Shown one piece after another: positions 20,724 to 36,868 of a DNA stretch of 64,000 nucleotides. The stretch covers positions 124,001-188,000 of the forward strand of contig NZ_CABHMS010000004.1 of NCBI RefSeq assembly GCF_902167635.1, read 5' to 3'. The first letter of the stretch is position 1, and each line of letters opens with the position of its first letter. The translations under genes were made by a program, and so were the position numbers. The stretch is from Chitinophaga vietnamensis (GTDB lineage: Bacteria > Bacteroidota > Bacteroidia > Chitinophagales > Chitinophagaceae). The notes beneath the pieces were generated by a model. That model had not been told where the DNA came from. It did no database searches and was given only the letters and a program-made list of their open reading frames with translations.

Positions 20724-21077
20724 GGTGGGCGTGAATTTTTTTTAGCTCCTGTTTTGCATGCTGTCAATGCAGCGGACCGTGCGTTGCTGGAGAGACAGGC
20801 AGTGCTGTTTTCTTTGGCGATGGCGTGGGTGCTGGGCTGTTAAACCTTTCCGGCATATGCTGTTTGCGTTGCCTTCTTACACTTAACTTATAGACGTGAG
20901 CGTGTTGTGATCTCTCGTCATTTCTGTTGCTTATGTTATGAGCTTAGTACTTTACCGCTGTAGCGTTATTAGTATTAGACTCCCTATCTACATTTGTTAA
21001 TCACTCGTTAACCGTTGGTTAATCATCTTATTCTAGCTACCTGTTCAATGGCACACGTCCTCCTCCCCATATATTTG

Positions 21078-21272: not shown

Positions 21273-21396
21273 GATTTGGATTTTTTAGTGTTCATATGGG
21301 GTGCTTGTCTAAGCAACCCCTTTGTTTTTTTATAAGGGGGCTTTGTAGGTTATTTTCGTGTATGCTTTATTGTTATTGTATGCTTACGTGAGAAGA

Positions 21397-22399: not shown

Positions 22400-25300
22400 A
22401 TGCGAGCAAAATCGTGTGTTGCCGGAGGCTTGTGCCGGCCGATATTGATCATACTATTTTTAATTACGGCATTAGACGCCTTCTGTTTAAGCCCTAAGTC
22501 ATATATAGCCCCAAAGGGAGATGAACCTGATACCAGTATTGTCATCCCCAAATTAACTGGTAAAGTGACCGATTCTTCAGGCATGCCGTTGCCCGGTGTA
22601 ACCGTAATGGTGAAAGGTACTAAGAAAGGTGCCAGCACCGATGGTAACGGCATGTTTACCTTGAAGGATGTGAAGCAAGGGAGTTGGCTGGAAGTGAGTT
22701 CGGTAGGGTATGAGAGTAGGGATGCCAGAGTGATTGGTAATAAGATAGCCGTACATTTGAATATGGTGACGAAAGATTTGGAAGAAGTGCATATTGTTTC
22801 GACGGGATATCAGAAGTTGCCAAAAGAACGGGCGACTGGGTCGTTTGCGTTTGTGGATAATAAACAGTTTAATCAGAGGATAAGTTCAGATATTTTGAGT
22901 AGGTTGGAGGGGAATGTGGCAGGGTTGGTGTTTAATAAAGGAACGGTAGGTGCAGACGGAAAATTGAATAACATAAGTATTAGAGGACATAGTACTTTGT
23001 TCGCAGTTGATCAGCCATTGATTGTGGTTGATAATTTTCCTTATGAAGGCGACTTGAATAGAATTAACCCCAATGACGTAGAATCTGTAACTGTATTAAA
23101 AGATGCTGCGGCAGCTTCCGTTTGGGGAGTAAGATCTGGGAACGGTGTAATTGTAATTACAACAAAGAAAGGAAAGAGATCACAAAAGTTGACAACAACA
23201 TTTAATTCAAATGTTACTATTTCAGGTAAACCTAATCTTTTTTATAGCCATAATTTTCTGGCGTCATCAGATTATATTGGTATTGAAAAAAACCTTTTCA
23301 ATATGGGCTATTATGACAATATGTTGAATAGCTTTTCAACTATTGTTTCTCCTGTGGTGAAAATTTTATCGGACGCGAGATCTGGAAAAATTTCTTCTAA
23401 TGAGGCAGATGAGAAGATTTCTCAATTAAGCCATATAGATAGTCGGCAAGAGTATACAAAATATCTTTATCAGAAGGCTATAACTCAGGCCTATGCTATA
23501 AGCATAAATGGAGGCGGAGCGAATAGCGACTACTATTTGTCTTTAGGGTATGACCGGAATAGAGCGACCACAGTTGGAGACAGAGATAACCGAGTTACCA
23601 TTAATTCCACATATAATTTTTATCCAACGAATAATTTGCAAATTGGAGCTGGAATAAACTACGTTCAAACAATAAACTATCCCAACTCTTCTGCAGGCAG
23701 GACAATACCGAACTATCCATATACTAAACTGGTTGATGAGAAAGGTAACCCAATAGAGATCCCCGTTGATCTAACTTCTATGTATAAAGATAGCATGACT
23801 AATCTAGGTTTTTTGAATTGGAAGTATATTCCTTTGGCAGAAATTAAAATGGCAGACAATAGAGTGAGAAGTAGTGCCACTCGACTCAGCTTTCGAATGA
23901 AATATGATATCTTTCCTTCACTAGATGCCGAAATAAATTATCTATATGAGAATAGTGGAATTCAAACAAACAATTATTATAGTCAAGCAACCTATCATAC
24001 AAGGAATTTAATTAATTTATATACACAAATTAACCAGGATGGTAGTTTGTCTTATCCAATACCAATTGGTGGAATTAACGAGGAAGGAACTTTGACACTA
24101 TTATCTCATCAAGTAAGAGGACAACTTAACTATAATAAAAAATGGAGAGAGCATAGAGTATCAGCACTCACTGGACTTGAAATTAGACACAACAATGTTA
24201 CTCAAAATACGAGTACCGCTTACGGGTTTGACAAAAGTACTCTTAATAATATTCCTACCATTGATTTTAGTACCTTTTTCCCTTTGAATCCATTTGGATC
24301 CGCTAGAATCCCCAATAATATAGCATACTCCAGTAATATTGATAATTACGTATCTTATTTTGCAAATGCCGCTTATACTTATAAAGAGACATACACCGTT
24401 TCAGCAAGTTTTAGAACCGATAAGTCTAATTTGTTCGGCGTTGAAACAAACCAAAAAGCAGTACCGTTATATTCAGCAGGGGCAGCATGGAATTTGAGCC
24501 GCGAAAATTTTTATCATGTGAAATGGCTTCCGTATTTGAAGATTAGAGCAACTTACGGTTATACTGCAAATATTAATAAGAATGCAGCAGCAGTTGTGAC
24601 AACGCTTCAAGGGACAGGTTCGCCATTTTTGGGATTGCCTTTCGAAAGAATCAATAATCCCGGAAATCCGCAGCTACGTTGGGAAAGAAATCGTATGATT
24701 AATTTGGCAATTGACTATGGTTTAATGAATGGAGCAATTGTTGGAAGTTTTGAATATTATTTAAAGAAAAGTAGTGATGTGTTTGGCCAGGCTCAATTAG
24801 CGCCTTCAACCGGGGTAAGCGCATTCTTTGGCAATACTTCAGGTACTGAAGGGCATGGAGCTGAATTTCAGCTTGTAAGTAAGAATATTAATAAAAAGAA
24901 CTTCAGATGGACAACTGACGTCAAAGCCAGTTATTCTATTGATAAGGTGACCAATTATGATCTCAAGTCGTCAGTGTTGGATTTCCTTATTTATGGCTCT
25001 GGTAACGGGGGGGGGATTATTCCTCATGTGGGATATCCAATGTTTGCCATGTATAGCTTTAAATTTGGTGGACTTACTCACGATGGTGGGGATCCACAAG
25101 GTTATTTAAATGGTAAGCTTAGCACTGATTATCAGAGTATTTTGAATGGAGCGACTGTGGATAGCTTGATTTACAATGGCCCGTCCAGACCTACCAAAGT
25201 AATTACTCTTGGGAATACATTTACCTATAAACAGTTTACTTTATCGTTTAGATTTTTGTTTAATCTCAACTACTATTTTAGAAGAACATCCATAAGTGAC

Positions 25301-25681
25301 GTGTCTTCCATTACGGGTGGGACAGGAAATGTTGATTACTATAAAAGATGGCAACACCCCGGCGATGAATTGACAACTAATGTTCCATCTTTCAAATATC
25401 CTCCGATAAATACCGACAGAATGCTTTTTTATAACTATTCGTCGGCTCTTATTGAAAAAGGTGATAATATAAGAGTGATGGATATAAACTTGAGCTATGA
25501 AGTTGATTCTCGTAGACTAAGAAGGTTGCCTGTTTCCAATCTTATTTTTACCTGTTATCTGAATAATATTGGAATTATATGGAGAGCGAATAAAAGTAAA
25601 ATAGATCCAGATATTTATTCTGATGGACAGCAAATACCGGTGCCAAGAAGTATTGCGTTTGGTGCCCGAGTAACCTTTTAA
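22400..25681 (+). CDS. SusC/RagA TonB-linked outer-membrane protein (no STN domain)
   Basis: 1093 residues. After a signal peptide (I-L-I-I-L-F-L-I-T-A-L-D-A) comes a carboxypeptidase-regulatory-like domain (T-G-K-V-T-D-S-S-G-M-P-L-P-G-V-T-V), then the plug with H-I-V-S-T-G-Y-Q, the signature L-K-D-A-A-A-A-S-V-W-G-V-R-S-G-N-G-V and the barrel ending A-R-V-T-F. It lacks the STN domain of the other two SusC proteins here, so it is not tied to a sigma/FecR pair. From about residue 140 on, the gene is markedly AT-richer than the rest of the window. It forms a unit with SusD (20-base gap) and a TlpA-like redoxin, and faces the LanKC/peptide operon tail to tail. Confidence 0.92.
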   Translation: MRAKSCVAGGLCRPILIILFLITALDAFCLSPKSYIAPKGDEPDTSIVIPKLTGKVTDSSGMPLPGVTVMVKGTKKGASTDGNGMFTLKDVKQGSWLEVSSVGYESRDARVIGNKIAVHLNMVTKDLEEVHIVSTGYQKLPKERATGSFAFVDNKQFNQRISSDILSRLEGNVAGLVFNKGTVGADGKLNNISIRGHSTLFAVDQPLIVVDNFPYEGDLNRINPNDVESVTVLKDAAAASVWGVRSGNGVIVITTKKGKRSQKLTTTFNSNVTISGKPNLFYSHNFLASSDYIGIEKNLFNMGYYDNMLNSFSTIVSPVVKILSDARSGKISSNEADEKISQLSHIDSRQEYTKYLYQKAITQAYAISINGGGANSDYYLSLGYDRNRATTVGDRDNRVTINSTYNFYPTNNLQIGAGINYVQTINYPNSSAGRTIPNYPYTKLVDEKGNPIEIPVDLTSMYKDSMTNLGFLNWKYIPLAEIKMADNRVRSSATRLSFRMKYDIFPSLDAEINYLYENSGIQTNNYYSQATYHTRNLINLYTQINQDGSLSYPIPIGGINEEGTLTLLSHQVRGQLNYNKKWREHRVSALTGLEIRHNNVTQNTSTAYGFDKSTLNNIPTIDFSTFFPLNPFGSARIPNNIAYSSNIDNYVSYFANAAYTYKETYTVSASFRTDKSNLFGVETNQKAVPLYSAGAAWNLSRENFYHVKWLPYLKIRATYGYTANINKNAAAVVTTLQGTGSPFLGLPFERINNPGNPQLRWERNRMINLAIDYGLMNGAIVGSFEYYLKKSSDVFGQAQLAPSTGVSAFFGNTSGTEGHGAEFQLVSKNINKKNFRWTTDVKASYSIDKVTNYDLKSSVLDFLIYGSGNGGGIIPHVGYPMFAMYSFKFGGLTHDGGDPQGYLNGKLSTDYQSILNGATVDSLIYNGPSRPTKVITLGNTFTYKQFTLSFRFLFNLNYYFRRTSISDVSSITGGTGNVDYYKRWQHPGDELTTNVPSFKYPPINTDRMLFYNYSSALIEKGDNIRVMDINLSYEVDSRRLRRLPVSNLIFTCYLNNIGIIWRANKSKIDPDIYSDGQQIPVPRSIAFGARVTF

Positions 25682-25701
25682 ATAATATTAGAAATTTTTT
25701 T

Positions 25702-27090
25702 ATGACAAGAAGAAGTATATATTACTTTACATTTTTACTTATTGTACTGGGAAGCGTTACCTGTAAGAAACAAGATGAGTTTCTTGCAGAAAAGCCAACT
25801 GCTGCTCTTGCGGAAATAACGAGTTTGAGTGATATCCAAAAATTGTTAAATAATGAGTCATTGTTTAATGATGGTAATGTTCCTGATTTGCCAGAAGTGT
25901 CAAGTGATGAGTATTACGTAACATATGCTGGCTGGATTGAAAGGGTTTATACTGAGCAGGCAGCATACCTTTGGGAGAAAAAGGTTTATTCAGCCGGGGA
26001 AAATGTGCGAGATTGGTATAATCCATATACACAGATATACTATGCCAACACTATTCTTGATAGACTGCCGGATATTAAGATTGATGCTGGAGAAAAGCAA
26101 ATGGTGGATAGACTGAAAGGAACAGCACTTTTCTTCAGGGCGTTTGCATATTTTAATCTTTTACAAGTGTTTGCCGCACCATACGATTCAACAACAGCAC
26201 AGCGTGATCTCGGAGTGCCGCTGAGATTGATTTCTGATTTTAATGTAAGGGTAGGTAGGAATACGCAAGAAGAATGCTATAATCAGATTTTTCAGGACCT
26301 TTCTGATGCATACCAACTATTGCCTGAGAGGCCAATTCAATTAACTCAACCAGGCAAGCTCACAGTAAACGCATTGTTGGCGAGAATTTACAATTGTCTT
26401 GGGAAATATGAAATGGCACTGAGCTTTGCCAATAAAACACTTGAAAAAAATGGTATACTCGTTGATTACAATCAATTGACCAATACCGATTATTTTTTTA
26501 TCACATCTCCAGATAGGTTCTTACAAGAAGATATTTTTCACTGTACTATGCATTTCTATGGCATGTACTCCTTCTCAACAGGAATTGTTGATTCCACGTT
26601 ATATAGTATGTTTGAAGATAATGATTTAAGAAAGGGGCTTTTTTTTATGAATTATGCTGATGGCTTGCGTTTTAAAGGCTCATATGAGTATGTTAATTTT
26701 GGATATTGTTTCTCTGGTCTTGCAACGGATGAAATATACTTGATAAGAGCAGAATCATACGCACGACGTGGCGATATACAGAACGCTATGAAAGATATGA
26801 ATACACTGCTTGTTAAAAGATATAAAGCAGGAACATTTGTGCCATTGAACGCGTCTTCGGTCGATGATGCATTACGGAAAGTTTTGAATGAAAGAAGAAA
26901 GGAGTTGTGTTATAGAGGGCTTAGATGGCTAGACTTACGACGGTTGAATAAAGATACTCGATTTGCTGTAACGTTGAAAAGAGTATTAAATGGAGTGAAT
27001 TACGTTTTACCTCCCAATGATGTTCGATACACATTTCCGATTCCTGATCGGGAATTGGCACTGAATAATATTCCACAGAACCCAAGATAG
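25702..27090 (+). CDS. SusD/RagB-like outer-membrane lipoprotein
   Basis: 462 residues. Lipoprotein signal with lipobox G-S-V-T-C-K-K. The N-terminal F-L-A-E-K-P-T and the helical core with F-F-R-A-F-A-Y-F-N-L-L-Q-V-F-A-A-P-Y-D, and the C-terminal V-L-N-E-R-R-K-E-L-C-Y-R-G-L-R-W-L-D-L-R-R-L-N, are standard SusD signatures. It partners the SusC gene immediately upstream. Codon use is AT-rich like its neighbours. Its distance from any glycoside hydrolase and its proximity to peptide-modifying genes make a peptide ligand at least as likely as a glycan; that is inference from context. Confidence 0.9.
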   Translation: MTRRSIYYFTFLLIVLGSVTCKKQDEFLAEKPTAALAEITSLSDIQKLLNNESLFNDGNVPDLPEVSSDEYYVTYAGWIERVYTEQAAYLWEKKVYSAGENVRDWYNPYTQIYYANTILDRLPDIKIDAGEKQMVDRLKGTALFFRAFAYFNLLQVFAAPYDSTTAQRDLGVPLRLISDFNVRVGRNTQEECYNQIFQDLSDAYQLLPERPIQLTQPGKLTVNALLARIYNCLGKYEMALSFANKTLEKNGILVDYNQLTNTDYFFITSPDRFLQEDIFHCTMHFYGMYSFSTGIVDSTLYSMFEDNDLRKGLFFMNYADGLRFKGSYEYVNFGYCFSGLATDEIYLIRAESYARRGDIQNAMKDMNTLLVKRYKAGTFVPLNASSVDDALRKVLNERRKELCYRGLRWLDLRRLNKDTRFAVTLKRVLNGVNYVLPPNDVRYTFPIPDRELALNNIPQNPR

Positions 27091-27120
27091 TTTCAGCCCA
27101 AGAAATATTGAATAATAAAT

Positions 27121-28695
27121 ATGTTGTATATGAAAGTGTTAATAGACTGGAGAAGTATATTTGATGACATCATCAATCACTCTTATTGGGAAGAAATAAG
27201 TTGCTTTTGCCATATATCTGTGTCAGTATTTTTCTTATTTTTTTGTTCTACTCCTGTTTGCTTTGCCCAAAGCAGGACGGCTACAATAATTGAAAGTAGA
27301 GATAGTGTGCTAAGAAATGGGGAAAATGTTAGTTTGACTATCTCAGCGAAAATATTAGGTGCATATGGAAATGAGCAAGTAAATAGAGGTTTTCAATTAG
27401 ATACTGTTTATAATCAGCCAATACATAATCACTCCTTTAAATTTGTGATTGATAGTATCAAGGATCCAATTGATGTTACTCTTCAATATATTGATTTTAA
27501 AGATAGGAAATTTACTATTGGCCAAACATTCATTGTGAGACCAGGAGATTCTGTAAACATGTCTTGGAACGGAAATAGCTTTGTTTTTTCTGGAAGAGGA
27601 TCTTCTAGATATAATTGCCTGCATGAGCTGAGTATTCTGTCTGATAGTGCGCCGCAATTGTGGAGTACTAAGGCAATACCATCTAATTTTGACTACTATT
27701 TCACTCTGGTAGATTCCTTTGCTGAGGCAAGTTTGCAGCTTGTTGATAAATATAAGACAGAACTGAATAGCGATGACTACTGGCTTCTAAGGGCTAAGGT
27801 GATAATTGGTTGCCAGACAGCTAAGTATTATTTTGTGAATGACGGTACACCGAATTTTGTTATAAGCAAATTGAATGATGCAAAGATTATTGCATTGAAA
27901 AGATATGGAGTGAATCCGATATGGAATGATGGAGTTAGGAATGATTTCATAGGCAATCCCGTTATATCGCACTACCTAGAATTTCTTGACTTCTTGATTG
28001 CGGAACATAACTATAAATCGATTTATGAGTTACACAAACCGGAGGATTTATCGAAGGCATATAGTTATTTCGTTCAGATGTTAAATGGCCCAGTTAGAGA
28101 GTGGGCTATCTATAGATTGATTAATAAATTTCCATTAGATGTTTCATCTGGATTATGCATTAAAGATGCTTTGGATAAAGGATATATCAAGAATACTTCA
28201 ATAAAGGAACGCATGCTTTATTTGCTTAAAAATTTTGTACCGGGAGCTACTGCCTACAACTTTTCGTTGAAAGATGTAGCTTCAAATACTGTTCGCCTTT
28301 CTGATTTGAAAGGCAATGTTGTTTTAATCGATTTTTGGTATATTGGATGTGGTGGATGTATAAGTATTCATCCATACTTAGATAGTATTCGAAACCAGTT
28401 AAAAGACGAAAAATTTAAATTAGTTAGTATTTGCCTTAGTGTCAATGATGATGGAAATACGCGAAAGAAATGGATTAATGCAATTAAAGAAGATAAATAT
28501 ACCTCTCCTCAGAATCTAAATTTAAATGCTCCGGGCAAGTATAAAAGATATCATGAAGTAGCCAGTCGCTATGAAATACTAGGATGCCCCTCTATCTTTT
28601 TAATTGATAAGGAAGGTCGATTTATTCAAAATCCTTTACGCCCAGAAATAGATCAGGGAAAAGAACTGATGACTCTTATAAAGAAAAATCTTTGA
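27121..28695 (+). CDS. TlpA-like thiol-disulfide redoxin with large N-terminal domain
   Basis: 524 residues. A signal sequence ends near C-F-A-Q (residue 50). Residues about 55-370 form a domain resembling the DUF4369-type N-terminal part of Bacteroidota redoxins. Residues about 375-524 are the thioredoxin-fold TlpA/AhpC-TSA domain: G-N-V-V-L-I-D-F-W-Y-I-G, then the active site Cys410-Gly-Gly-Cys413, and the cis-Pro segment G-C-P-S-I-F-L-I-D. It acts in the periplasm on disulfides. It follows the SusCD pair with a 30-base gap and converges on the peptide operon, whose products carry two cysteines each, and whose MauE-like protein is also a redox partner. Confidence 0.87.
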   Translation: MLYMKVLIDWRSIFDDIINHSYWEEISCFCHISVSVFFLFFCSTPVCFAQSRTATIIESRDSVLRNGENVSLTISAKILGAYGNEQVNRGFQLDTVYNQPIHNHSFKFVIDSIKDPIDVTLQYIDFKDRKFTIGQTFIVRPGDSVNMSWNGNSFVFSGRGSSRYNCLHELSILSDSAPQLWSTKAIPSNFDYYFTLVDSFAEASLQLVDKYKTELNSDDYWLLRAKVIIGCQTAKYYFVNDGTPNFVISKLNDAKIIALKRYGVNPIWNDGVRNDFIGNPVISHYLEFLDFLIAEHNYKSIYELHKPEDLSKAYSYFVQMLNGPVREWAIYRLINKFPLDVSSGLCIKDALDKGYIKNTSIKERMLYLLKNFVPGATAYNFSLKDVASNTVRLSDLKGNVVLIDFWYIGCGGCISIHPYLDSIRNQLKDEKFKLVSICLSVNDDGNTRKKWINAIKEDKYTSPQNLNLNAPGKYKRYHEVASRYEILGCPSIFLIDKEGRFIQNPLRPEIDQGKELMTLIKKNL

Positions 28696-28712
28696 TTGCA
28701 CAATGAGATTTA

Positions 28713-29027
28713 TTACTCATATGCTGTCGGACTGGGTGATAAATATCTTACATATGGATGACCTTTTATTTTTTCCGATGGGAATATTTTCGAGTATATA
28801 CTGTTCAGATCTCTAATTGGAATTGTTGTGCTTATTGTGCAAGCAGAGTTTCTAGTGCAAAATATACTAGTGATAGGTGCGGAAGGCCTCATATTCGTAT
28901 AGAAAAAAGTATTATTTCGTACCAGCGTGTAAACAACTTGCCTATGGTTGCCGCCACTGTATCGTGCGCATATAGACAAACTAAAATTAGTTGCTCCCCA
29001 AAGTAGTATTGTTAGAGACGCTCTCAT
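28713..29027 (-). CDS. Small two-cysteine peptide, paralogue 3 (possibly decaying)
   Basis: 104 residues from the first Met. The C-terminal half aligns with the two paralogues upstream: V-V-Y-T, F-F-Y-T, then Cys57, Cys63, C-T-I-S-T-T-I-P-I-R-D-L-N, F-P and Y-V-R-Y-L. Unlike them it has no convincing signal peptide: the N-terminus (M-R-A-S-L-T-I-L-L-W-G) is out of line with the M-K-K start of the others, and its first cysteine is shifted relative to the family alignment. A one-base shift in the N-terminal region would restore a more hydrophobic segment (L-I-L-V-C-L-Y-A). It may be a decayed copy or start differently. Last gene of the leftward operon; its stop is 17 bases from the TlpA stop. 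Confidence 0.55.
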   Translation of the reverse strand: MRASLTILLWGATNFSLSICARYSGGNHRQVVYTLVRNNTFFYTNMRPSAPITSIFCTRNSACTISTTIPIRDLNSIYSKIFPSEKIKGHPYVRYLSPSPTAYE

Positions 29028-29085
29028 CGTTGAATGAGATTAAAAGAGGTTTAAAGTTAAGTTGTTTTTTAACTTGAATAGCTTA

Positions 29086-29412
29086 TTACTGGTAAACTGT
29101 TGGTGGAGGTGTAGTTGTAAGATATCGAACATATCCTGGGCTGTTTAAATGTTCCACAGGGAAGCTAGTCTTATAGCCTGTATTTAAATCTAGTATACTT
29201 ATAGTAGTGGAAATTGTACATATGCCTTTGAGCGATGCAAGGCAGGTAAGGGGTAAATTTATATGTATAGTTGTGTACACAAAATTCCCACTGACTAATT
29301 TAGTATAGACAATTAATGAAGGTGTTGAATGCCTATTGTATCTTGGTGGAATAGCGGCACCTATTCCAATAGCTGATGCAATAAAACAAACGATAAAATG
29401 TATCTTTTTCAT
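29086..29412 (-). CDS. Small secreted two-cysteine peptide, paralogue 2 (DUF6520-like)
   Basis: 108 residues. Start M-K-K-I-H-F-I-V-C-F followed by a hydrophobic signal peptide (I-A-S-A-I-G-I-G-A-A). The mature part has L-I-V-Y-T, N-F-V-Y-T-T, then Cys57 and Cys65, the core C-T-I-S-T-T-I-S-I-L-D-L-N, F-P and Y-V-R-Y-L, ending in P-T-V-Y-Q. The signal plus short cysteine-bearing body resembles DUF6520-type Bacteroidota proteins, though I cannot confirm membership. The Ser/Thr-rich core next to the second cysteine is what a lanthionine synthetase would need, so it is a candidate substrate of the LanKC enzyme of this operon. A single disulfide is the simpler alternative. Confidence 0.72.
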   Translation of the reverse strand: MKKIHFIVCFIASAIGIGAAIPPRYNRHSTPSLIVYTKLVSGNFVYTTIHINLPLTCLASLKGICTISTTISILDLNTGYKTSFPVEHLNSPGYVRYLTTTPPPTVYQ

Positions 29413-29719
29413 ATACTTTTTATTAGATGGAGTAAAGCTCTATTCATATTATATGTGGACGTTCGAATATGATTGACGGTAAGTACTATGTCGAGGAATA
29501 TTTGATACGAGATATGCGAAAAGGACCTCTGAAAATGATAGACCGGCTAGCGTTAATCTATAACTGTATTTGAAGTAGACGAACCGTAATCTTCCTGAAA
29601 TATTTAGCTTGGATCGGATGATATGTAAATATTAATTGAAGTTGTAATCCCCCACAAGCTTATTTTCATTTTCTTTTAATGAATTTAATATTGTAGAACT
29701 TAACGAAGAGGATATGTTA

Positions 29720-29748
29720 TTAGGTGGCTGACCAAGTCAGCCACCTAA
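29720..29748 (-). terminator. Strong hairpin after peptide 1 gene
   Basis: TTAGGTGGCTGA (29720-29731) and TCAGCCACCTAA (29737-29748) form a perfect 12-bp stem with a 5-nt loop, 23 bases after the peptide 1 stop. There is no clean T-run, so it may be a partial terminator or 3' stabiliser that raises peptide 1 output over peptides 2 and 3. The remaining gene-free stretch 29413-29719 shows no further copy of the peptide and no clear promoter. Confidence 0.6.
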
Positions 29749-29771
29749 CGGACTAATTATGAGATCTGTTC

Positions 29772-30107
29772 TTATTGGAACAGTGTGGGCAATTGACCCG
29801 GTGTGTAGTTCAAGTAAGTCACGTGAGGTGAAGTTCCTTGAGCTGGGAAAGTCGCATTGTACGGAGCGGCATTCAAAGTCGCAATTGGAATAGTTGTGGT
29901 GATAGTGCACACTGCGTTTTTGGTAAAGGTCTGGCAGCTCTTAGGCAGAGGCTTAACTGAAGTGTAAGAGAAAGTAACTGTACCAGAACCTTTCTGTGCA
30001 TAAACAACAGGGGCAGCATTGCTGCTAGCTTTAGGAGCTAATGCAAATGCGGTACCAACACCGGCGATAGCAGCTACGGCCATCAGACTCATTTGTACTT
30101 TTTTCAT
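29772..30107 (-). CDS. Small secreted two-cysteine peptide, paralogue 1 (DUF6520-like)
   Basis: 111 residues from ATG 30107 (an upstream in-frame Met at 30134 would precede the signal peptide). M-K-K-V-Q-M-S-L-M-A and a hydrophobic run to A-F-A-L form a signal peptide. The body carries V-V-Y-A-Q, T-F-S-Y-T, Cys58 and Cys67, then C-T-I-T-T-T-I-P-I-A-T-L-N, F-P, V-T-Y-L and an end in T-L-F-Q. The gene is GC-richer than its operon neighbours and is followed by a perfect 12-bp hairpin, suggesting a highly expressed product. Position after LanKC and MauE genes marks it as the likely main product acted on by them. No LxLQ-type leader motif of known class III precursors is seen. Confidence 0.8.
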   Translation of the reverse strand: MKKVQMSLMAVAAIAGVGTAFALAPKASSNAAPVVYAQKGSGTVTFSYTSVKPLPKSCQTFTKNAVCTITTTIPIATLNAAPYNATFPAQGTSPHVTYLNYTPGQLPTLFQ

Positions 30108-30256
30108 AGTTTTAAATATTGAAATGATTAACAATTGATCAGATTTTTACGGGACCTGATGTTAAACCCGTTTGCGCAAAATTTTTTTGTGTATTTGGAT
30201 CACGTCAATGAACAGTTAGTTTTGTATTAAGAGAGCTGCCAATTTTAGCAAGATTT

Positions 30257-30703
30257 TTATGTTAGTGTTAAACTTGAGGAATGCTTATTGTTTAGCAATT
30301 TTTTTTCAGCGATTATACCACTGACAGCAATTAATAGGAAAGTAGAATTGAAAGCAAAGTGTTGAGGCCATGTGAACTGCGAAATTACTCCTCCGCAAGC
30401 ACAAGGGGTATATGGAAGTAAATTAGCAATTCCTAGTCCTACATAAACGGTAAAAGCGAGCATTACAACAGACGCTCCGTAGAAGCCCCAAAGCCTTGAT
30501 CTCGAAAATATTAATGCTATAGAAATAAATATCTCAACAATAGGCACAGACCATTGCAAGAATGTTTTTGACCAATTAGGAACTGGTTGCATCTCCATTG
30601 CGTGAGTAAAACCAGGCCAGTCAAAGACCTTGCTGAAAGCAGCGTACATAAACATCAAAATCAATGATGTTGAAAGTACTGTTAGGAGAATTTCTCTTTT
30701 CAT
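30257..30703 (-). CDS. MauE/DoxX-like redox-associated membrane protein
   Basis: 148 residues, four predicted transmembrane helices (about 5-25, 50-68, 75-95, 112-132). The pattern A-A-F-S-K-V-F-D-W-P-G-F in the first loop and P-Y-T-P-C-A-C-G-G-V between helices 3 and 4 is typical of MauE-type proteins, with Cys101 and Cys103 as candidate redox pair. The family is linked to disulfide formation or electron transfer for exported proteins, as MauE is for methylamine dehydrogenase maturation. It lies 10 bases after the LanKC gene and 149 bases before the peptide 1 start; function in keeping peptide cysteines in the right redox state is inference. Confidence 0.8.
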   Translation of the reverse strand: MKREILLTVLSTSLILMFMYAAFSKVFDWPGFTHAMEMQPVPNWSKTFLQWSVPIVEIFISIALIFSRSRLWGFYGASVVMLAFTVYVGLGIANLLPYTPCACGGVISQFTWPQHFAFNSTFLLIAVSGIIAEKKLLNNKHSSSLTLT

Positions 30704-30713
30704 AATGAAATAT

Positions 30714-33350
30714 TTACTTAAATAAAGGATAGGATAATAACTCCCAATTGATGTATCGTAAAAGAAAATGCAAAATTCCTGAATGTCCAGTCATCAGATC
30801 GGCGGATGGCAAATTTGTGTTATCTGTTATCCATATGGCAGTGTCATTACTCTCTGGTACTGAGATATGTAAAAGAAATTGAGCTATCCATTCTGCACGG
30901 TCTTTAAAACTGGGGTATTTAAGTGCATTGGCAGCATGGATATATACTTCTCCCAAACCTGCAACCCCCCTTTCTATCCCTAGATAAGGACTATTGATCT
31001 GGGCTGGGTGATTTTGTAAGGCGGAAATAACTAATTTCTTGTATTGTATGTTTTGTGTGATGCTGTAAGCTTCAATAAAAGGTATTATAATACCAGTGAC
31101 ACCATATTCCAGCCATGGATCAATATCTGTATTTCCATCGAAGTATCCCCAGGACTTATTGCCATTAATTTCTATAGCATGGCTTTCCAAGAATTCAAGC
31201 CCTTTCATTGCGGAATGAAGTATTTCCAGCTTCCCTACAGCTTGATAGGCTTTTAGCATGAAGTAGATGATACCTGCAATGCCGTGGGAGAAACTATATA
31301 ACTTCAGCAAATTTTCTCCTGTAGAAATTACCCAGGAGCCATCTTTCTCCTGTCGTTTTATTAATTCTTCGACTATTTGGTTTAGTAGCGGTTCATAGAA
31401 CCGATCAAGTATTTTACGGCACTGAAGAACCACCAATCCTTGTCCGGCAAGCCCTTCACTAATACCCAGTTTGTCGGGTAACGTCAATAACCCATTTTTT
31501 ATCAGATCAAGAATTTCATCAGCCGGTTCCAGCCATCCTATTTCAATGCCCCTTTTTAGTAATAGACTGTTGCCAGCAGTACCGAAATAAAGCCCCTGGG
31601 TGGTTGGGTAATCTGGTGAAAGCAACACATTTACCAGATGGCCGAAGTTTTTATTTATTGCCTCTCCACATTGATCGATAGGTTGACCTAATCGAGCTGC
31701 ATCGACTAGTACATCCACAACTCCGCCTATGCCGGTATGAAGTCCCAAATAGTTCGTTGTTTCGATCAGCTCATTTGTAAGTACTTGGTCACTATTTATG
31801 GATTTTGATATCCAAAGTCCATTTTCTGACGTGAGTTTTGCGCCAGTTAACGCTTTATAACCTTTGTTTAGGCAATCCTGTATATCTGTTTTACTACTGA
31901 GGAACATCAGCGGTTTCGGCGTGTCGTTGATCTGTGATCCATAATTTTCAAGAAAATCTATCAGCTTTGATACGTTGGGTCTGTTGTTTGGGTTATGATC
32001 CAGACAAGCGCAGATAATATCTGCTAATACTTCATCCTGGATTAGAAACCGTAAGTTACGTCGCAGCACCTCCGGGTATGCTGGATTGAATAATTTTGGT
32101 GACAAGCAGGTGAAGGCCCTGATCATAATACCTCCTAATCCGTAGACATCCTGCATAGTATCTGGTATGTCTACCCGCATCTGTTCTGGCGACATATATC
32201 CGGGTGTACCTAAAGTAAAGGGGGGAAGCGGTTTTTCAGATCGCAAGTTGTACATAAGCTCCAAGTCTATGCAATTTATTTTACCGCTTTCGGTTACCAG
32301 GAAGTTTCTTGGACTCAGATCTCTGTGCACGAAACCTCTTTGGTGTAGCCTTTTTATAATATGAAACAGTTCTAATAATAAACCCAGTAAATGTTTGCGT
32401 GCATCCATACTGAGATTGAACCACATTTTACCTTGGTAAGTAGCGTCAATTAAATCGCTTAATGGAATCCCGTCCATCATCTGCATTACAAAGTAAAGAT
32501 TGTCATCTTCCTCAAAAAGATCTATCGCTTGAGGGACGAAGAAATCATTTTCTAGCTGTTTATGTAACTCATACTGCCAGCGAAGCCGATCGCGTACATC
32601 TCTTCCATGATCATCTGAAGAGACGTGGTGTTTACCTTCCTTAAGGATGAAATATGAATTCTTCCTGAATTTCAGTGGATTCGTTACAATTGCTACAATG
32701 CCTTTTGCATCGTTTTTTAACAATGATGTGATCTGATACTTGCCATTATAGCATGTTTTTTCTTTAATTTCTGTATATTTCTTGATGTTGCTGAAAGGCC
32801 ATTGGAGGTCATTTGCCAATGTGAATGGTATCGGCTTTTCATCCTTTACCAAGTTGCCGGTAGCATCATAAATAAAGGATTCTAATGCTCCGTTGTTATC
32901 CTTGAACTGCATTGGATTTATACCACCGTATCGGGTATATATAATTCCTCCGAGATGATAGTCTGTTGGGATGGCTGGTCCACTGAAGTTGCGGGTAAGG
33001 TCGATCAAAAGCATTGCTACGCGTGCAGCTTCCTCGTCAGAGGAAGGATATACCGTAATTATTTTACCCAATAATTGATGGCCAAGATGCCCTCCCAATA
33101 TAGCTATCGCTATTTCTTCCGTTGCAGGTATTTTAAAGGCAATATTTTCTTTGATCAGTAGCGGACATATCCGCTCTAATAGAGTAATAATTTGAGTTGG
33201 TATAACAGACAAATGTAATAGCCATCCTTGTAAGATGTTGCTAACACCCACTTGCAGATAGTGGCCAATAGGCACGAAAGGTATACCGTTTGCTTCCAAC
33301 CAGCTATCGTACCGTGGACGTTTGGTTATTATAGTTGCTGCTTCTGTCAT
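30714..33350 (-). CDS. LanKC-type (class III) lanthionine synthetase
   Basis: 878 residues with the three-part class III architecture. Residues 1-220: lyase-like domain, with L-G-K-I-I-T-V-Y-P (94-102) and G-G-I-I-Y-T-R-Y-G-G-I (134-144). Residues ~230-475: Ser/Thr kinase-like domain with Lys237, catalytic V-H-R-D-L-S-P-R-N (341-349), C-I-D-L-E in place of DFG, and G-T-P-G-Y-M-S-P-E-Q. Residues ~490-878: LanC-like cyclase built of G-x-x-G helices (S-H-G-I-A-G, V-A-G-L-G, G-H-S-G). The zinc ligands of LanC (W-C-Y-G and C-H-G) are absent: W-L-E-Y-G and M-T-G-H-S-G stand in their places, as in class III and unlike class II/IV enzymes. It would phosphorylate, eliminate and cyclise Ser/Thr and Cys of a precursor. 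AT-rich. Confidence 0.86.
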   Translation of the reverse strand: MTEAATIITKRPRYDSWLEANGIPFVPIGHYLQVGVSNILQGWLLHLSVIPTQIITLLERICPLLIKENIAFKIPATEEIAIAILGGHLGHQLLGKIITVYPSSDEEAARVAMLLIDLTRNFSGPAIPTDYHLGGIIYTRYGGINPMQFKDNNGALESFIYDATGNLVKDEKPIPFTLANDLQWPFSNIKKYTEIKEKTCYNGKYQITSLLKNDAKGIVAIVTNPLKFRKNSYFILKEGKHHVSSDDHGRDVRDRLRWQYELHKQLENDFFVPQAIDLFEEDDNLYFVMQMMDGIPLSDLIDATYQGKMWFNLSMDARKHLLGLLLELFHIIKRLHQRGFVHRDLSPRNFLVTESGKINCIDLELMYNLRSEKPLPPFTLGTPGYMSPEQMRVDIPDTMQDVYGLGGIMIRAFTCLSPKLFNPAYPEVLRRNLRFLIQDEVLADIICACLDHNPNNRPNVSKLIDFLENYGSQINDTPKPLMFLSSKTDIQDCLNKGYKALTGAKLTSENGLWISKSINSDQVLTNELIETTNYLGLHTGIGGVVDVLVDAARLGQPIDQCGEAINKNFGHLVNVLLSPDYPTTQGLYFGTAGNSLLLKRGIEIGWLEPADEILDLIKNGLLTLPDKLGISEGLAGQGLVVLQCRKILDRFYEPLLNQIVEELIKRQEKDGSWVISTGENLLKLYSFSHGIAGIIYFMLKAYQAVGKLEILHSAMKGLEFLESHAIEINGNKSWGYFDGNTDIDPWLEYGVTGIIIPFIEAYSITQNIQYKKLVISALQNHPAQINSPYLGIERGVAGLGEVYIHAANALKYPSFKDRAEWIAQFLLHISVPESNDTAIWITDNTNLPSADLMTGHSGILHFLLRYINWELLSYPLFK

Positions 33351-33364
33351 TTTGTTATTTATGC

Positions 33365-34537
33365 TTATATCTTGCTCAGATGTGGTTTAATATGCTGTAC
33401 CGCTTCTTCAGTGAAGGATTGCGGACTATTTTGGATCAACTGTTTTAATTCAATCTGCAATGGCCTTGCCTCACTTATTCTGCCGGAATGTAGGCAAGCA
33501 GAATAATGATAGAACAATAGCTGCCACTCATAAACAGATGCCCTTAATTCCGATATATCAACATCTTTCGGCTTTTTTTGATGATAATTCTTATAAGCAA
33601 AAGAACTGTATAGATATGCCGTTTGCCATGTTTGCTTTTCAATATAATGCTCTATAATAGGGCAAAATGGTTCACCTCTTCGCCGGTCTATCGCATGGGC
33701 TTTGAGCAGATCCTGCTGGATGTCAGACCATCTCTCGCCACATCGGATCTTATTATCTGCAATACGCTCTTTGAGTTTATACTTTTCATCTCTCTCAAGG
33801 TTATCTATGTTTAGTGCTTTCTGATAAGTTTCACGTGCCAGCAGCAATAAATCCATTTTCTGCTGGTTGGAGGTACTATGCATTGCAGCTGCACTATAAC
33901 TTTGCCCTACATAATATATCCATCTGTACTCAGGGTTGCCTTGATCAATAAATGTTTTGAGCTTTTCTGCGTAGTTTAGAAATTTTTGGGTCAGGTCTCC
34001 CTGCCAGGAAGCGCCTTTTTTTTCATAGATGACCTGAATATTGTATATAATTGCTTCCTGTATTGTAGGGTCATTGTGTGCGATATATTCATGTACCACC
34101 CCTTTCCAGTAGAAAGGTTTTGATAAGCGAAAGAATAGTTGTTTAGTAAAATTTATATCTTCTGAGACAGTGGATACGTAGTAGATATCTTGGTTAATTT
34201 GATCTCTTTTGAAAGAAGCAGATATCTCTATTTGCTCGTCGCAGTCGATCCAAAACCCCCAGCTTTGCTCCAAATCCCATCCTGCTGCGTTAGTGGTTTC
34301 TTTCAGCATTTCTAATGCGTAGTTACGAGAACTACCAAAGTCATCAAAGGGTCGTTCGAAAACGTAGGTTGGTATATTATGCCGTATGCCGAAATTTTGA
34401 ATAACTTCAATAGTATCGTCTGTTGACCCAGTGTCTAATGCCACAATGAGATCTGTCAATGGAAGTGCCGAAGTTAACATCCTTTCTATAATATGACTTT
34501 CATTCTTACAAATGAAGTTTAATGCGAATCTTTTCAT
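33365..34537 (-). CDS. GT2-family glycosyltransferase with C-terminal TPR-like region
   Basis: About 390 residues from M-K-R-F-A-L-N-F (34537); the frame stays open to a Met at 34561, but that start would overlap the upstream gene. The GT-A domain shows I-C-K-N-E-S near the N-terminus, L-D-T-G-S-T-D-D-T for nucleotide-sugar binding and the D-C-D-E metal motif, followed by W-K-G-V-V-H-E. Residues from about 200 on are helical, with TPR-like repeats. The layout recalls SunS-type S-glycosyltransferases of glycocin clusters and other Bacteroidota GT2-TPR proteins. The helical part has the motif W-Q-T-A-Y-L-Y-S-S shared with the next protein. It precedes LanKC by 14 bases and could glycosylate the peptide or an envelope target. 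Confidence 0.8.
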   Translation of the reverse strand: MKRFALNFICKNESHIIERMLTSALPLTDLIVALDTGSTDDTIEVIQNFGIRHNIPTYVFERPFDDFGSSRNYALEMLKETTNAAGWDLEQSWGFWIDCDEQIEISASFKRDQINQDIYYVSTVSEDINFTKQLFFRLSKPFYWKGVVHEYIAHNDPTIQEAIIYNIQVIYEKKGASWQGDLTQKFLNYAEKLKTFIDQGNPEYRWIYYVGQSYSAAAMHSTSNQQKMDLLLLARETYQKALNIDNLERDEKYKLKERIADNKIRCGERWSDIQQDLLKAHAIDRRRGEPFCPIIEHYIEKQTWQTAYLYSSFAYKNYHQKKPKDVDISELRASVYEWQLLFYHYSACLHSGRISEARPLQIELKQLIQNSPQSFTEEAVQHIKPHLSKI

Positions 34538-34541
34538 AATT

Positions 34542-35336
34542 CTATGCTTTCGGTATGGCAATAATGTTGGGTACTCCCCCTTTGTTTTGAATCAATGCAA
34601 GCTGATAGTTCCTGAACCTTTCTAAATCATCTGCTGTGAACCATTCTTGATGATTAACCGTATATCTCATCAACATTTCGTATGCTTTCCTTGCTTCATC
34701 TTTTTTGCGCAAGGTCAGGCAAAGTGGAAGATGAAACTCCAGGATTTTCCAATGATAGAAAGCTGTATCTATGAACCATTTCCGGGTATCAACAGGTGGT
34801 TTCCCCTGTAGTTGAGCCATAAAGTAAGAGCTATATATATAAGCGATCCGCCATTCGTGCATGGCATAATACATTTGAATGATGTTACGTATAGCCTCTC
34901 CACGTGCAGTATCCAGCTCGAGTGTGGCGAGATATATCTGTTCTACTTCGGGCCAAGGAGTATCTAATTGCTGAAGAAGCTCCCCTGTTTGCCATTTGGC
35001 AAAGTACTGCAGGTCTCTTTCACCTTTTTGTGAAGACAGAAAATCATTGAATGCAGTAAGCGCTTGATCTGTATGATATCGTTGTATGGCGACATTTTCT
35101 TGCCCGATGGCTAACTGCTGGTGGAAATAACCAGTTAGAAACGGGATTACATAGTCATGTTTTTTGCCAATCCTGTGTTCATTATCTCTGAGCGTTTCAA
35201 GGAACTTCTGATAATGCTCAGATCTATTGCTACCCACACCGACTTGGGAAGAAAAGAAATCTTCAACATAATCTGGTCCGGCAGTGACGTGCTTCGCAAA
35301 ATCGTAGTATATATTTTTTTTGAAAAACATAGTCAT
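34542..35336 (-). CDS. TPR-like helical protein, paralogous to GT2 C-terminal region
   Basis: 264 residues, no signal peptide and no catalytic motif that I recognise. Its second half (W-R-I-A-Y-I-Y-S-S-Y-F, then F-Y-H-W-K-I-L-E-F-H and K-K-D-E-A-R-K-A-Y-E) aligns by eye with the helical C-terminal half of the following glycosyltransferase (W-Q-T-A-Y-L-Y-S-S-F-A, V-Y-E-W-Q-L-L-F-Y-H and R-I-S-E-A-R). It therefore looks like a glycosyltransferase relative that lacks the GT-A domain, and may be a scaffold or substrate-binding partner. It overlaps the upstream membrane protein gene by four bases, and four bases separate it from the GT2 start. Confidence 0.65.
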   Translation of the reverse strand: MTMFFKKNIYYDFAKHVTAGPDYVEDFFSSQVGVGSNRSEHYQKFLETLRDNEHRIGKKHDYVIPFLTGYFHQQLAIGQENVAIQRYHTDQALTAFNDFLSSQKGERDLQYFAKWQTGELLQQLDTPWPEVEQIYLATLELDTARGEAIRNIIQMYYAMHEWRIAYIYSSYFMAQLQGKPPVDTRKWFIDTAFYHWKILEFHLPLCLTLRKKDEARKAYEMLMRYTVNHQEWFTADDLERFRNYQLALIQNKGGVPNIIAIPKA

Positions 35337-36868
35337 ACATTTAATTCCATAGCTCCAGCGCCCTTCGGTGTATGCTCCTTTGCTTTTTCATCTTCATTAC
35401 TGAACTGTATAGCATAGTCAACGAGTAAGAGCCCAAATGTTAAGAACAGGATCATCGGAAATATCTGGTACCTGAACACAATAGGGGAAGCCAGGATGCT
35501 GAACAAACAGTTTGTCAACAACAAGATGCCGATCAACAGCAACCCACTTCTGAAAGAAGTACTAGTCCTTTTTAGTTGTCCACTAAAAAAGAGCCATAGT
35601 AACGCGGCAATAAGCATTAACTGTAATAGCATGAATAGCGGTGATTCCAATATCAGCAAACTACCTTGCAATGAGGAGGAAAGGAATCTTATCTGTAAGC
35701 TGCTATAACCAAACCATTGTGCTGCTATGGGACTGACCACGTCTTTACCGAGGTTGTAAACTTCCATTTTTTCCAAAGGTGGCACAAGATAGTTGGCCGC
35801 ATTAGGAAGAAGATAATATCTCAAGAACGCAATCGGATGCTTCTTTATTAGTGCTGTACCGAACTTAGAAAACATAGGAGATACCTTTCCCCAGGCCTTC
35901 ACATCCGACGCCAAGGTATCGGTAGACCAGTACGCGTACAAGGCTTGTTTCAGTGGAGCGTTTGAATGTTTAATAAAGTAAGCGCCTTTGGCAGGTGTTA
36001 CGTTTATTGTTTCAAAGCCTAGTGTATCAAAGAACTGCTTGGTTTGTCTTGCCAGCTGTTGCGTTTCTATCGGCAAGTCTTTGTCATTTACCTGTATATG
36101 TGGATACATATACATGGCGTTGTTTGCGATCTGCCAGCCGCTGAAAACTGAAAACTGCTTGGTGCCTGTTATTTCCTGTGATTTGTACTCTGTATAATTG
36201 ATAAATGAATAGATCAATATCAACGGCAACCCTATTCCTATTACTTTGAGGGTTAGGCTACGACGTGAGATGATAAATGCCAGTGCCGTGATGAATGGAT
36301 AGTAGATCGCATTATACCTCACCGTGAACGCTATCGTGATCACCAGCGTATGCGTAATTATCTGGTACGGCGATGGCCGGTGGATGATCCACAGCAGCTG
36401 CACCAGCCACCACATACTCAATCCGAGGAACAGCGCGTCACTGGATATATAATTACTCAGGTAGAGGAAGAGCGGATTAAAAAACAGGAAGATGAAGATA
36501 ATGATCGCTGTTCTTCTTACCGGTGAGTAGAAGTATAGTACTGTAAAGAAAAAGTAGAGTGATGTCAGTTCTACGAACAGGTACTGAAAGGCTACCACTG
36601 CGGTGTCGGAATGCGTGATAACGTGAAACAGTGCCAGGAACTTCGAGTAGCCGATAGGCCATATATTCACATCACGGCCTGTTGCTGCTGCATATATATA
36701 ACTATAGGAGTCGCTAAAATAATCTGCAAACGGATACAGGATTTTGAATATTACCAATTGTATGATAATGCCAGCCAATGCGATGCCAAGATAGGTCCTG
36801 TTCTGTTTTTCTTTCAAGATAAATGACAAGAAATTACTTTCCTGCGTGCGATCGGTAAGGTAGTTCAT
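35333..36868 (-). CDS. Multispanning membrane protein, GT-C glycosyltransferase-like
   Basis: 511 residues from M-N-Y-L-T-D (36868); the frame is open further upstream but those residues look noncoding. About ten to eleven hydrophobic segments are spread through the protein. A D-Y-F-S-D-S-Y-S-Y motif in the first extracytoplasmic loop, Y-L-S-N-Y-I-S-S-D-A-L-F near residue 160 and V-R-Y-N-A-I-Y-Y-P resemble GT-C type glycosyltransferases that use polyprenyl-linked sugars. First gene of the leftward operon, overlapping the TPR-like gene by four bases. With the GT2 gene it suggests that sugar attachment is part of the system. The donor and acceptor are unknown. Confidence 0.65.
   Translation of the reverse strand: MNYLTDRTQESNFLSFILKEKQNRTYLGIALAGIIIQLVIFKILYPFADYFSDSYSYIYAAATGRDVNIWPIGYSKFLALFHVITHSDTAVVAFQYLFVELTSLYFFFTVLYFYSPVRRTAIIIFIFLFFNPLFLYLSNYISSDALFLGLSMWWLVQLLWIIHRPSPYQIITHTLVITIAFTVRYNAIYYPFITALAFIISRRSLTLKVIGIGLPLILIYSFINYTEYKSQEITGTKQFSVFSGWQIANNAMYMYPHIQVNDKDLPIETQQLARQTKQFFDTLGFETINVTPAKGAYFIKHSNAPLKQALYAYWSTDTLASDVKAWGKVSPMFSKFGTALIKKHPIAFLRYYLLPNAANYLVPPLEKMEVYNLGKDVVSPIAAQWFGYSSLQIRFLSSSLQGSLLILESPLFMLLQLMLIAALLWLFFSGQLKRTSTSFRSGLLLIGILLLTNCLFSILASPIVFRYQIFPMILFLTFGLLLVDYAIQFSNEDEKAKEHTPKGAGAMELNV

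Follow-up and report, generated by a model that had tools for sequence, protein, structure and literature searches.

What kind of peptide pathway, if any, is encoded where a relative of lanthipeptide synthetases lies next to peptides with Sec-type signals and faces an outer-membrane SusC-SusD pair? A locus of Chitinophaga vietnamensis raises this question, and we examined it in a window of 64,000 nucleotides, i.e., the whole stretch of DNA that was analyzed. The original prediction named SusC-SusD-TlpA, peptide, MauE, LanKC, GT2-TPR, TPR and GT-C-like genes as one system in a shared AT-rich block. All of these genes are present within the region 22400-38274, as confirmed by Pfam and NCBIfam matches and by homology. 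The plus strand carries the genes for SusC, a TonB-dependent outer-membrane transporter (22400..25681; TIGR04056, 505.8 bits versus a cut-off of 368), for SusD, its lipoprotein partner in the outer membrane (25702..27090; PF14322, PF07980), and for a TlpA-like protein with a thioredoxin fold and a C-G-G-C motif (27121..28695). They converge with minus-strand genes for peptide 3 (28713..29027), peptide 2 (29086..29412), peptide 1 (29772..30107), MauE, a membrane partner in thiol oxidation (30257..30703; PF07291, E 1.5e-27; C-x-C-G-G), a LanKC-derived protein of RamC_N-kinase-LanC-like build (30714..33350; PF25816, PF00069, PF05147), a GT2 glycosyltransferase with a TPR-like C-terminal part (GT2-TPR, 33365..34561; PF00535 at 22.8 bits, cut-off 23.3), a TPR-like protein (34542..35336) and a GT-C/PMT-like membrane protein (35333..36940; weak PMT_2 match, E 0.01, under the cut-off). 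The TPR-like protein gave no TPR match in Pfam and is a homolog of the GT2-TPR C-terminal part (27% over 137 amino acids, E 3e-14). An AraC-family regulator on the minus strand (37270..38274), a recurrent neighbor of the gene set, belongs to it and was added to the earlier list. The block 22400-36940 is indeed AT-rich, with 38.4% G+C versus 51.7% in the window outside 22000-38500.

The most likely start of peptide 1 is the ATG at 30107. Its leader ends in A-F-A, and its mature part is Thr-rich with two cysteines. Peptides 2 and 3 are related to it (E 2.8e-9 and 3.8e-8), as predicted; their description as two-cysteine products needs amendment, since both carry three cysteines in total, two of them in the mature part. 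Peptide 2 has a Sec-type leader, and that of peptide 3 is atypical or decayed and was missed by our leader model. Directly 3' of the peptide 1 stop codon, a perfect 13-bp inverted repeat with a 3-base loop was read from the sequence (29720..29748, minus strand). Terminator-like sites were more frequent in 28000-30800 than in shuffles (7 versus 1.7), promoter-like sites showed no excess there (10 versus a mean of 11.1), and an Rfam search of positions 18000-40000 gave no match over the gathering scores. An AlphaFold2 model of peptide 1 from five sequences reached a mean pLDDT of 53.

We compared 97 LanKC neighborhoods of the genus with 20 control stretches from the same genomes. At E<=1e-20, 63 of 79 Chitinophaga genomes contain LanKC relatives, and a single genome has up to four distinct genes, judging by the matches listed; one locus, L107, in which no LanKC open reading frame was picked, and about 15 further matches, mostly of the short lyase-kinase form, lie outside the set. 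SusC was found in 76 of the 97 neighborhoods versus 6 of the 20 controls, SusD in 80 versus 1, TlpA in 49 versus 2, MauE in 44 versus 0 and GT-C relatives in 25 versus 0. Leader peptides were called by a leader model, whose training set was the same LanKC loci in which they were counted, together with hydropathy, and at equal search size they were present at 79/97 loci versus 0/20 controls for E<1e-4 and at 84/97 versus 3/20 for E<0.01. Since mature parts diverge too far for alignment search (an alignment of five peptides found matches in only 8 of the 79 genomes), this recurrence rests on the leader model and on position. Most precursors have a Sec-type signal, with a basic start, a hydrophobic stretch and small residues at its end, such as A-F-A, followed by a short, Thr-rich mature part that usually holds two or four cysteines. 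Past residue 24, the peptides contain 14.1% Thr and 3.5% Cys, compared with 5.9% and 0.9% in open reading frames of more than 200 amino acids.

LanKC and the nearest SusD are convergent in 63 of 80 loci, and SusC or SusD is present at 78 of the 84 LanKC loci with a leader peptide. No peptide was found at 13 of the 97 loci, where some peptides were perhaps missed by the filter for open reading frames and one locus, L051, sits on a 6.3-kb contig; seven of the 13 also have no SusCD. LanKC operons that consistently go without peptides and SusCD were thus not seen, and the predicted grouping of LanKC, peptide, MauE and SusCD was found repeatedly across Chitinophaga, which supports the view that the parts form one recurring system. 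Within this system the kinase is an accessory part, since peptide-MauE loci without it exist: a second such locus in the genome of the window (L039) has no LanKC, and among the best 30 MauE loci of the genus, a leader peptide lies no more than 1.5 kb away in 14, and a single one of these was recognized as a LanKC locus.

The closest paralog of the window SusC in its own genome, which holds 39 SusC matches, pieces included, lies at this second peptide-MauE locus (C3:470157; 47%, 1010 bits), and the next-best paralog is far behind (28%, 258 bits). In a phylogeny, 13 SusC proteins, all from peptide-MauE loci, form a clade with a support of 1.0 that contains none of the five control SusCs; a second clade of peptide-locus SusCs includes one of the five. 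As the locus itself makes the peptides, we slightly favor outward transport by the SusCD pair, with re-uptake nearly as likely. Quite possibly, then, though at somewhat less than even probability, the pair is an importer: the secreted peptide would bind a nutrient, metal or signal and return via its own SusCD, in a loop for scavenging or sensing that the AraC regulator controls. Import is the known function of SusCD complexes (PMC12636315), and both the regulator in the gene set and the pairing of the SusC clade with peptide loci fit such a loop. A metal-binding motif common to the peptides was not seen on inspection by eye, which argues against it, as does the precedent of Oar/PopC for TonB-dependent export (PMC6434023). 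Re-uptake concerns direction and purpose and is compatible with a kinase that acts on the peptides.

Cysteine content and MauE coincide in part. Wherever MauE accompanies peptides (43 loci), no peptide lacks cysteine, and MauE is absent from all seven loci that hold a Cys-less peptide. Of the 53 LanKC loci without MauE, 41 have peptides, and at 34 of these 41 every peptide contains cysteine as well. It is reasonable to assume, as had been proposed, from the gene families and from the MauE-Cys association, that MauE and TlpA would act on the peptide thiols. As an obligatory partner MauE was rejected, given its presence in 44 of 97 loci.

The LanKC-like protein of the window contains lyase, kinase and LanC-like domains in a single chain, according to Pfam and to matches with solved chains. 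Its best solved matches by sequence are 8car (E 2.9e-31), which we take to be SgbL, and 8sam (LanKC; E 1.5e-22); the NCBIfam cut-offs are missed (NF038151, LanKC, 274.7 of 575 bits; NF038150, LanL, 351.2 of 650 bits). Over the 97 loci, the full lyase-kinase-LanC architecture occurs in 44 and a shorter form in 53. The latter comprises a group of 30 loci in which the lyase domain is mostly missing, with a gap at the QGWKIH motif in 27 of 30 rows, and a lyase-kinase group of 23 loci without a cyclase domain. On the kinase tree, the architecture label changes 7 times, compared with at least 41 times in 200 shuffles; since two outgroups failed to root this tree cleanly, we propose no sequence in which the domains were lost.

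For the lyase we compared eight residues of ThurKC, K65, H67, K94, K108, K117, D152, R163 and R191. The window protein retains five of them (H67, K94, K117, D152 and R163, as H46, K73, K96, D130 and R140) and has L44, G87 and K172 in place of K65, K108 and R191. The equivalents of K65 and K108 are lysine in none of 45 full-length and 24 lyase-kinase proteins (i.e., 0/69 lyase domains), and the lyase-kinase group keeps at most two of the eight residues; two LanKC relatives from outside the phylum retain the K65 lysine. In ThurKC, K65A abolished turnover and K108A installed no dehydro residue, while R191A and H67A gave phosphorylated intermediates and K94A an unmodified peptide (PMC10604976). 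A ThurKC stripped of lyase residues thus does not simply yield a phosphopeptide, which counts against the kinase reading. The zinc ligands of LanC are missing from the window protein; the C-H pair is found in 0/75 LanC domains and W-C in 6/75. The kinase residues K237, D344, N349 and D362 are all present in the window protein, and all four are intact in 96 of 100 aligned rows. The four damaged rows all belong to the set of 13 loci at which no peptide was found (hypergeometric p 2e-4; p-values here overstate independence, since the loci come from related genomes). The four damaged kinases include a pair of sisters, and L051, the locus on the 6.3-kb contig without a found peptide, is one of the four rows.

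By its sequence, the LanKC-like gene is a derivative of a lanthipeptide synthetase in which only the Ser/Thr kinase keeps the known catalytic residues throughout the group, and the dehydrating step seems to have been lost. Canonical class III lanthipeptide synthesis, which the original prediction took from the enzyme family, was accordingly rejected as the default because the lyase residues are lost; the kinase is retained, and the active sites of lyase and cyclase have degenerated or disappeared. Because the window lyase keeps five of the eight compared residues, a rewired elimination is possible. A divergent but true class III/IV-like pathway, in which an altered lyase eliminates phosphate, Thr and Ser lose water and Cys closes (methyl)lanthionine bridges ahead of Sec export, is in our view unlikely. 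It would suit the 44 loci with the full architecture and the retained H46, K73, K96, D130 and R140, and missing zinc ligands do not count against it, as these are missing from class III cyclases anyway (PMC7268733). It is at odds with the universal loss of the K65 and K108 lysines and the poor retention in the lyase-kinase group, with the groups that have dropped the lyase or the cyclase, with the missed LanKC and LanL cut-offs, and with three loci at which only Cys-less peptides stand beside a full-length LanKC form, plus one more with a single such peptide.

Kinases are often regulatory. The kinase might thus act on the regulation of the locus or on another protein, being retained as a local switch, and the peptide-MauE loci that do without it fit this idea. 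We consider this improbable in view of its descent from peptide-modifying enzymes, with parts of their domain scaffold kept, of the kinase gene adjoining MauE and peptides, and of the restriction of damaged kinases to loci without a found peptide. Finally, a chance neighborhood of a common SusCD-TlpA operon and an unrelated peptide operon is very unlikely given the recurrence, control counts, convergent geometry and SusC phylogeny, even though SusC is abundant in the genome and in control stretches.

Glycosylation would be an optional step. GT2-TPR, which had been likened to SunS, is an optional component found at 4 of 98 LanKC loci, and it is not a SunS equivalog: the SunS model TIGR04195 gave 30.3 of the 350 bits needed (E 1.9e-7) and the solved SunS an E value of 0.012. 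SunS-type S-glycosylation as a core step was rejected on the rarity of the gene. An alignment of the GT-C proteins had no match among solved structures up to E 1.

We hold it about evenly probable that the locus encodes a LanKC-derived peptide kinase in a modular pathway of Sec-exported peptides, with disulfide formation by MauE and TlpA, optional glycosylation and a dedicated SusCD pair. The LanKC-like kinase would phosphorylate the precursor on Ser and Thr while this is still in the cytoplasm, with the worn lyase and LanC domains possibly serving as a scaffold for substrate binding. The precursor would then be exported by Sec and cleaved by signal peptidase, and MauE and the TlpA-type thioredoxins, judging from their families and the MauE-Cys association, would set the disulfide in the periplasm. 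Optionally, the GT-C-like protein, and in the window also GT2-TPR, may glycosylate Thr or Ser. The SusC-SusD pair would move the product across the outer membrane, and the AraC protein may control the gene set. That the synthetase has been reduced in evolution to a peptide kinase, with lyase and cyclase as relics or scaffolds, and that secreted phosphopeptides, some of them disulfide-bonded or glycosylated, leave by dedicated TonB-driven SusCD pairs, we regard as rather unlikely.

If the kinase reading is true, the family shows a dehydratase turned back into a kinase and provides many combinations of precursor, enzyme and transporter on which phosphorylated secreted peptides can be tested; if phosphopeptides are also exported by SusCD, they would be a new peptide class with a new secretion route. 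Genome mining has been keyed on LanC and kinase domains (PMC7268733), so the longer forms are expected to be filed as class III/IV clusters, and a wrong product assigned to them. With its dedicated SusC clade, this soil genus allows TonB-dependent export of peptides to be tested, and DUF6520 gains a context among secreted Cys peptides that have MauE close by and in some cases face SusD or an S9 peptidase.

In titles and the beginnings of abstracts retrieved for lanthipeptides with SusC or MauE, LanKC in Chitinophaga or Bacteroidetes, and RiPPs with SusD, the system was not described; no paper combining three of TlpA, SusC, secreted peptide and MauE was found, nor one under the name DUF6520. 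With the class III/IV synthetases ThurKC and SgbL, the window protein shares the lyase-kinase-LanC-like order and intact kinase residues. The Chitinophaga family differs in having no K65 and K108 equivalents, in the missing lyase or cyclase of two groups and in precursors with Sec-type signals; an ABC exporter was absent from the Pfam matches of the window's gene set. Lanthipeptide precursors (LanA) have a non-Sec leader and a core with Ser/Thr and Cys, whereas Sec-type leaders occur here in 84 of 97 loci (79 at E<1e-4), with Thr-rich Cys cores in most and a Cys-less peptide at seven. Compared with class IV LanL, the zinc ligands of the LanC domain are missing in the window protein, and SunS shares only weak GT2-domain similarity with GT2-TPR.

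DUF6520 (PF20130) proteins resemble the peptides in the kind of leader, in being small two-Cys secreted proteins with MauE nearby, and in being convergent with SusD or an S9 peptidase in some cases. Peptide 1 matches this family weakly (17.2 bits, cut-off 25.4, E 0.007) and peptides 2 and 3 do not; simple membership was rejected as the family cut-off is missed. Elsewhere in the phylum, 14 of 17 PF20130 matches have MauE at a distance of at most 1.5 kb, including all 13 over the cut-off, and the stretches of about 3 kb read at these loci contained no LanKC match. In the Oar/PopC case of Myxococcus, a periplasmic protein, here a protease, requires a TonB-dependent transporter to pass outward, and the abstract makes no mention of SusD (PMC6434023). 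Peptides of the chryseobasin/DybA type from Bacteroidota differ in their enzyme, ChrH, an iron oxidase (MNIO) acting on a C-P-A-C-G-M-G core, in place of a LanKC-derived kinase, and MauE and TlpA, part of the Chitinophaga set, go unmentioned in the available sections (PMC12636315). The C-P-A-C-G motif occurs in 0/154 Chitinophaga peptides, and the Pfam search of the window's module returned no MNIO (DUF692). These sections describe a precursor that is modified in the cytoplasm and has a Sec or lipoprotein signal, and clusters that often include SusC/SusD and in one case a secreted prolyl oligopeptidase (PMC12636315); the Sec signal on the precursor and the nearby SusCD are what the two systems have in common.

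Inspection of the window recovered every gene named in the original prediction, in the order and on the strands claimed. The SusC and SusD genes and that of a TlpA-like protein point rightward on the plus strand (22400-28695) and are faced, up to position 36940, by those for peptide 3 (28713-29027), peptide 2 (29086-29412), peptide 1 (29772-30107), MauE (30257-30703), the LanKC-like protein (30714-33350), a GT2-TPR protein (33365-34561) whose C-terminal part is homologous to the neighboring TPR-like protein (34542-35336), and a GT-C-like membrane protein (35333-36940). Upstream, on the same strand as the peptide-LanKC genes, lies the gene of a recurrent partner, an AraC-family regulator (37270-38274). 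The G+C content of the block is 38.4%, versus 51.7% for the window outside 22000-38500. Between the stop codon of peptide 1 and peptides 2 and 3 lies a perfect inverted repeat of 13 bp with a loop of 3 bases (29720-29748), which may restrict read-through and leave peptide 1 in excess. The ~2 kb upstream of the SusC gene (20370-22399) holds only short open reading frames (ORFs; at most 140 amino acids among those listed) and gave no Rfam match, and an SMI1/KNR4 (SUKH-1) domain protein is encoded immediately beyond the block (18634-19185).

Evidence for one recurring system comes from the comparison of 98 LanKC neighborhoods (the window, 17 of one set of 20 stretches, and 80 others) with 20 control stretches of the same genomes; a locus for which ORF picking returned no LanKC was left out, giving 97 counted loci. 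SusC was found at 76 of the 97 loci versus 6 of 20 controls, SusD at 80 versus 1, TlpA-like proteins at 49 versus 2, MauE at 44 versus 0 and GT-C-like proteins at 25 versus 0, and relatives of one representative AraC regulator occurred at 60 of all 98 loci versus 1 of 20 controls; as the genomes are related, p-values overstate independence. At equal search size, a leader peptide was detected at 84/97 loci versus 3/20 controls (E<0.01) or at 79/97 versus 0/20 (E<1e-4), counts that are biased towards the LanKC loci because the leader model was trained on them. The LanKC gene and the nearest SusD gene (n=80) are convergent at 63 loci, on the same strand at 10 and divergent at 7. Near the lyase-less LanKC form, a ~261-amino-acid protein without a Pfam match (locus L140, 8133-8918) recurs in 14 loci; a DUF4221 protein and a ~178-amino-acid protein that contains a C-P-A-C motif and matches no Pfam family are also recurrent there. 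Another LanKC locus, L041, with a Cys-less peptide and without MauE, has SusCD followed on its strand by a subtilase (S8) gene (6711-8270).

SusC provides a second, separate line of evidence for one system. The closest paralogue of the window SusC within its own genome (47% identity, 1010 bits; runner-up 28%, 258 bits) is encoded at C3:470157-473324, in a locus (L039) where SusC-SusD-TlpA faces three peptides and MauE, with LanKC absent. A tree of 65 SusC proteins places these two with 11 others in a clade of 13 (support 1.0), all from loci with MauE and a peptide, and none of the five control SusCs falls inside. The remaining SusCs of LanKC loci are spread over different clades, one large clade of which contains a control, so the pairing is neither with a single SusC type nor exclusive everywhere.

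The LanKC-like protein of the window comprises RamC_N, kinase and LanC-like domains, and its top solved-chain matches by sequence are solved class III and IV enzymes, namely 8car (class IV) and 8sam. Its relatives fall into size classes of ~880 (44 loci), ~720 (30) and ~470 amino acids (23); nearly all of the ~720-residue form are without the lyase domain, and the ~470-residue form is without the LanC domain. For the class III synthetase ThurKC, K65A and R163A are reported to give no turnover, K108A to install no dehydro residue, K94A to leave the peptide unmodified, and H67A, K117A, D152A and R191A to be impaired, with phosphorylated intermediates left by H67A and R191A (PMC10604976). Because these outcomes differ, a lost lyase alone is no proof of a phosphopeptide product. 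Mapping of these eight residues onto the group through HMMER alignment to solved chains placed Leu44 of the window protein at K65; neither K65 nor K108 is matched by Lys in any of 45 full-length or 24 lyase-kinase proteins, and Arg occurs at R191 in 0/45 and 2/24, respectively. The window protein keeps five of the eight (H46, K73, K96, D130 and R140), and the lyase-kinase proteins at most two. In two relatives beyond the phylum, from plasmids of Haematobacter and Lacticaseibacillus, the five positions examined read K, H, K, K and R; the loss therefore characterizes this group. The usual His of the LanC domain is present in 2/45 full-length and 4/30 lyase-less forms, and none of the 75 LanC domains (0/75) has the C-H zinc-ligand pair, although absence of zinc ligands alone is described as normal in class III (PMC7268733).

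Of the domains, the kinase alone is retained in every form. Lys237, Asp344, Asn349 and Asp362 are complete in 96 of 100 rows. The four with losses (L051, L157, L159 and L171), two of them sisters (L157 and L159) and one on a contig of 6.3 kb (L051), are all among the 13 loci without a found peptide (hypergeometric p 2e-4). This coincidence in the sequences suggests, indirectly, that kinase activity is linked to the peptides.

LanKC relatives occur in 63 of 79 Chitinophaga genomes (E<=1e-20). At family level, 49 of 195 genomes match at E<=0.001, many through short kinase matches, and 16, including the window's own, at E<=1e-40 (tallied from the match listing); at phylum level, with up to two candidates scored per genome, at least 2 of 395 match at E<=1e-40, namely the window's own and one of the same family.

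The core of peptide and MauE also occurs without the kinase. Among the best 30 MauE loci of the genus, 14 have a leader peptide (E<1e-4) within 1.5 kb, one of which (L247) lies at L115, which is among the LanKC loci counted above. Across the rest of the phylum, 14 of 17 PF20130 (DUF6520) matches, including all 13 over the cut-off, have MauE no more than 1.5 kb away. At L206 and L210 the DUF6520 gene is convergent with SusD, and several DUF6520 genes are opposite a gene resembling an S9 peptidase, of which the one at L204 was checked against Pfam. At LanKC loci, S9-like peptidases were found in 15/97 versus 1/20 controls, and MauE in none of these 15. All 43 peptide loci with MauE have Cys in every detected peptide, and each of the seven loci that hold a Cys-less peptide belongs to the 41 without MauE (Fisher p 0.005; related genomes). 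As 34 of the 41 nevertheless hold only Cys-containing peptides, MauE may be replaced there by other thioredoxin-fold proteins. At one LanKC locus (L046, 3766-5668 and neighbors), a peptide family has a D-x-[DN]-x-D-G-x-C-T motif resembling an EF-hand loop, with an S9 peptidase adjacent and MauE absent. The window's genome also encodes an orphan peptide relative (L038, 9671-10042; C4:637680), with no match to MauE or SusCD within the 20 kb read. In locus L044 (11771-14917), a GT-C-like domain is fused to a flavoprotein matching PRK07208, which would agree with an unusual sugar donor; in L114 (5500-7179), a separate amine-oxidase-type flavoprotein adjoins the GT-C gene.

Given the domain anatomy, leader, co-occurrence and residue counts observed, the best-supported account is a phosphorylated, Sec-exported, disulfide-bonded peptide with its own SusCD. 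As to substrate and order of steps, we infer that the peptide would be synthesized in the cytoplasm, where the LanKC-derived kinase would phosphorylate it before Sec export; MauE and TlpA-type proteins would then form its disulfide, glycosylation would be optional, and its SusCD would carry it across the outer membrane. SusCD systems are known importers. In the Oar/PopC case, a TonB-dependent transporter is reported to be required for secretion (PMC6434023), and for the direction of transport here, export would have a slight edge over import.

Our search of open-access literature, by titles and the beginnings of abstracts, found no prior description of a Chitinophaga LanKC-peptide-SusCD system. 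The layout has a precedent in the ChrH/DybA MNIO family of Bacteroidota, for which precursors with Sec or lipoprotein signals, modified in the cytoplasm, are described, in clusters that often contain SusC and SusD and in one case a secreted prolyl oligopeptidase (PMC12636315). As far as that account goes, the Chitinophaga system shares this layout, whereas its LanKC-derived enzyme and its peptides are different.
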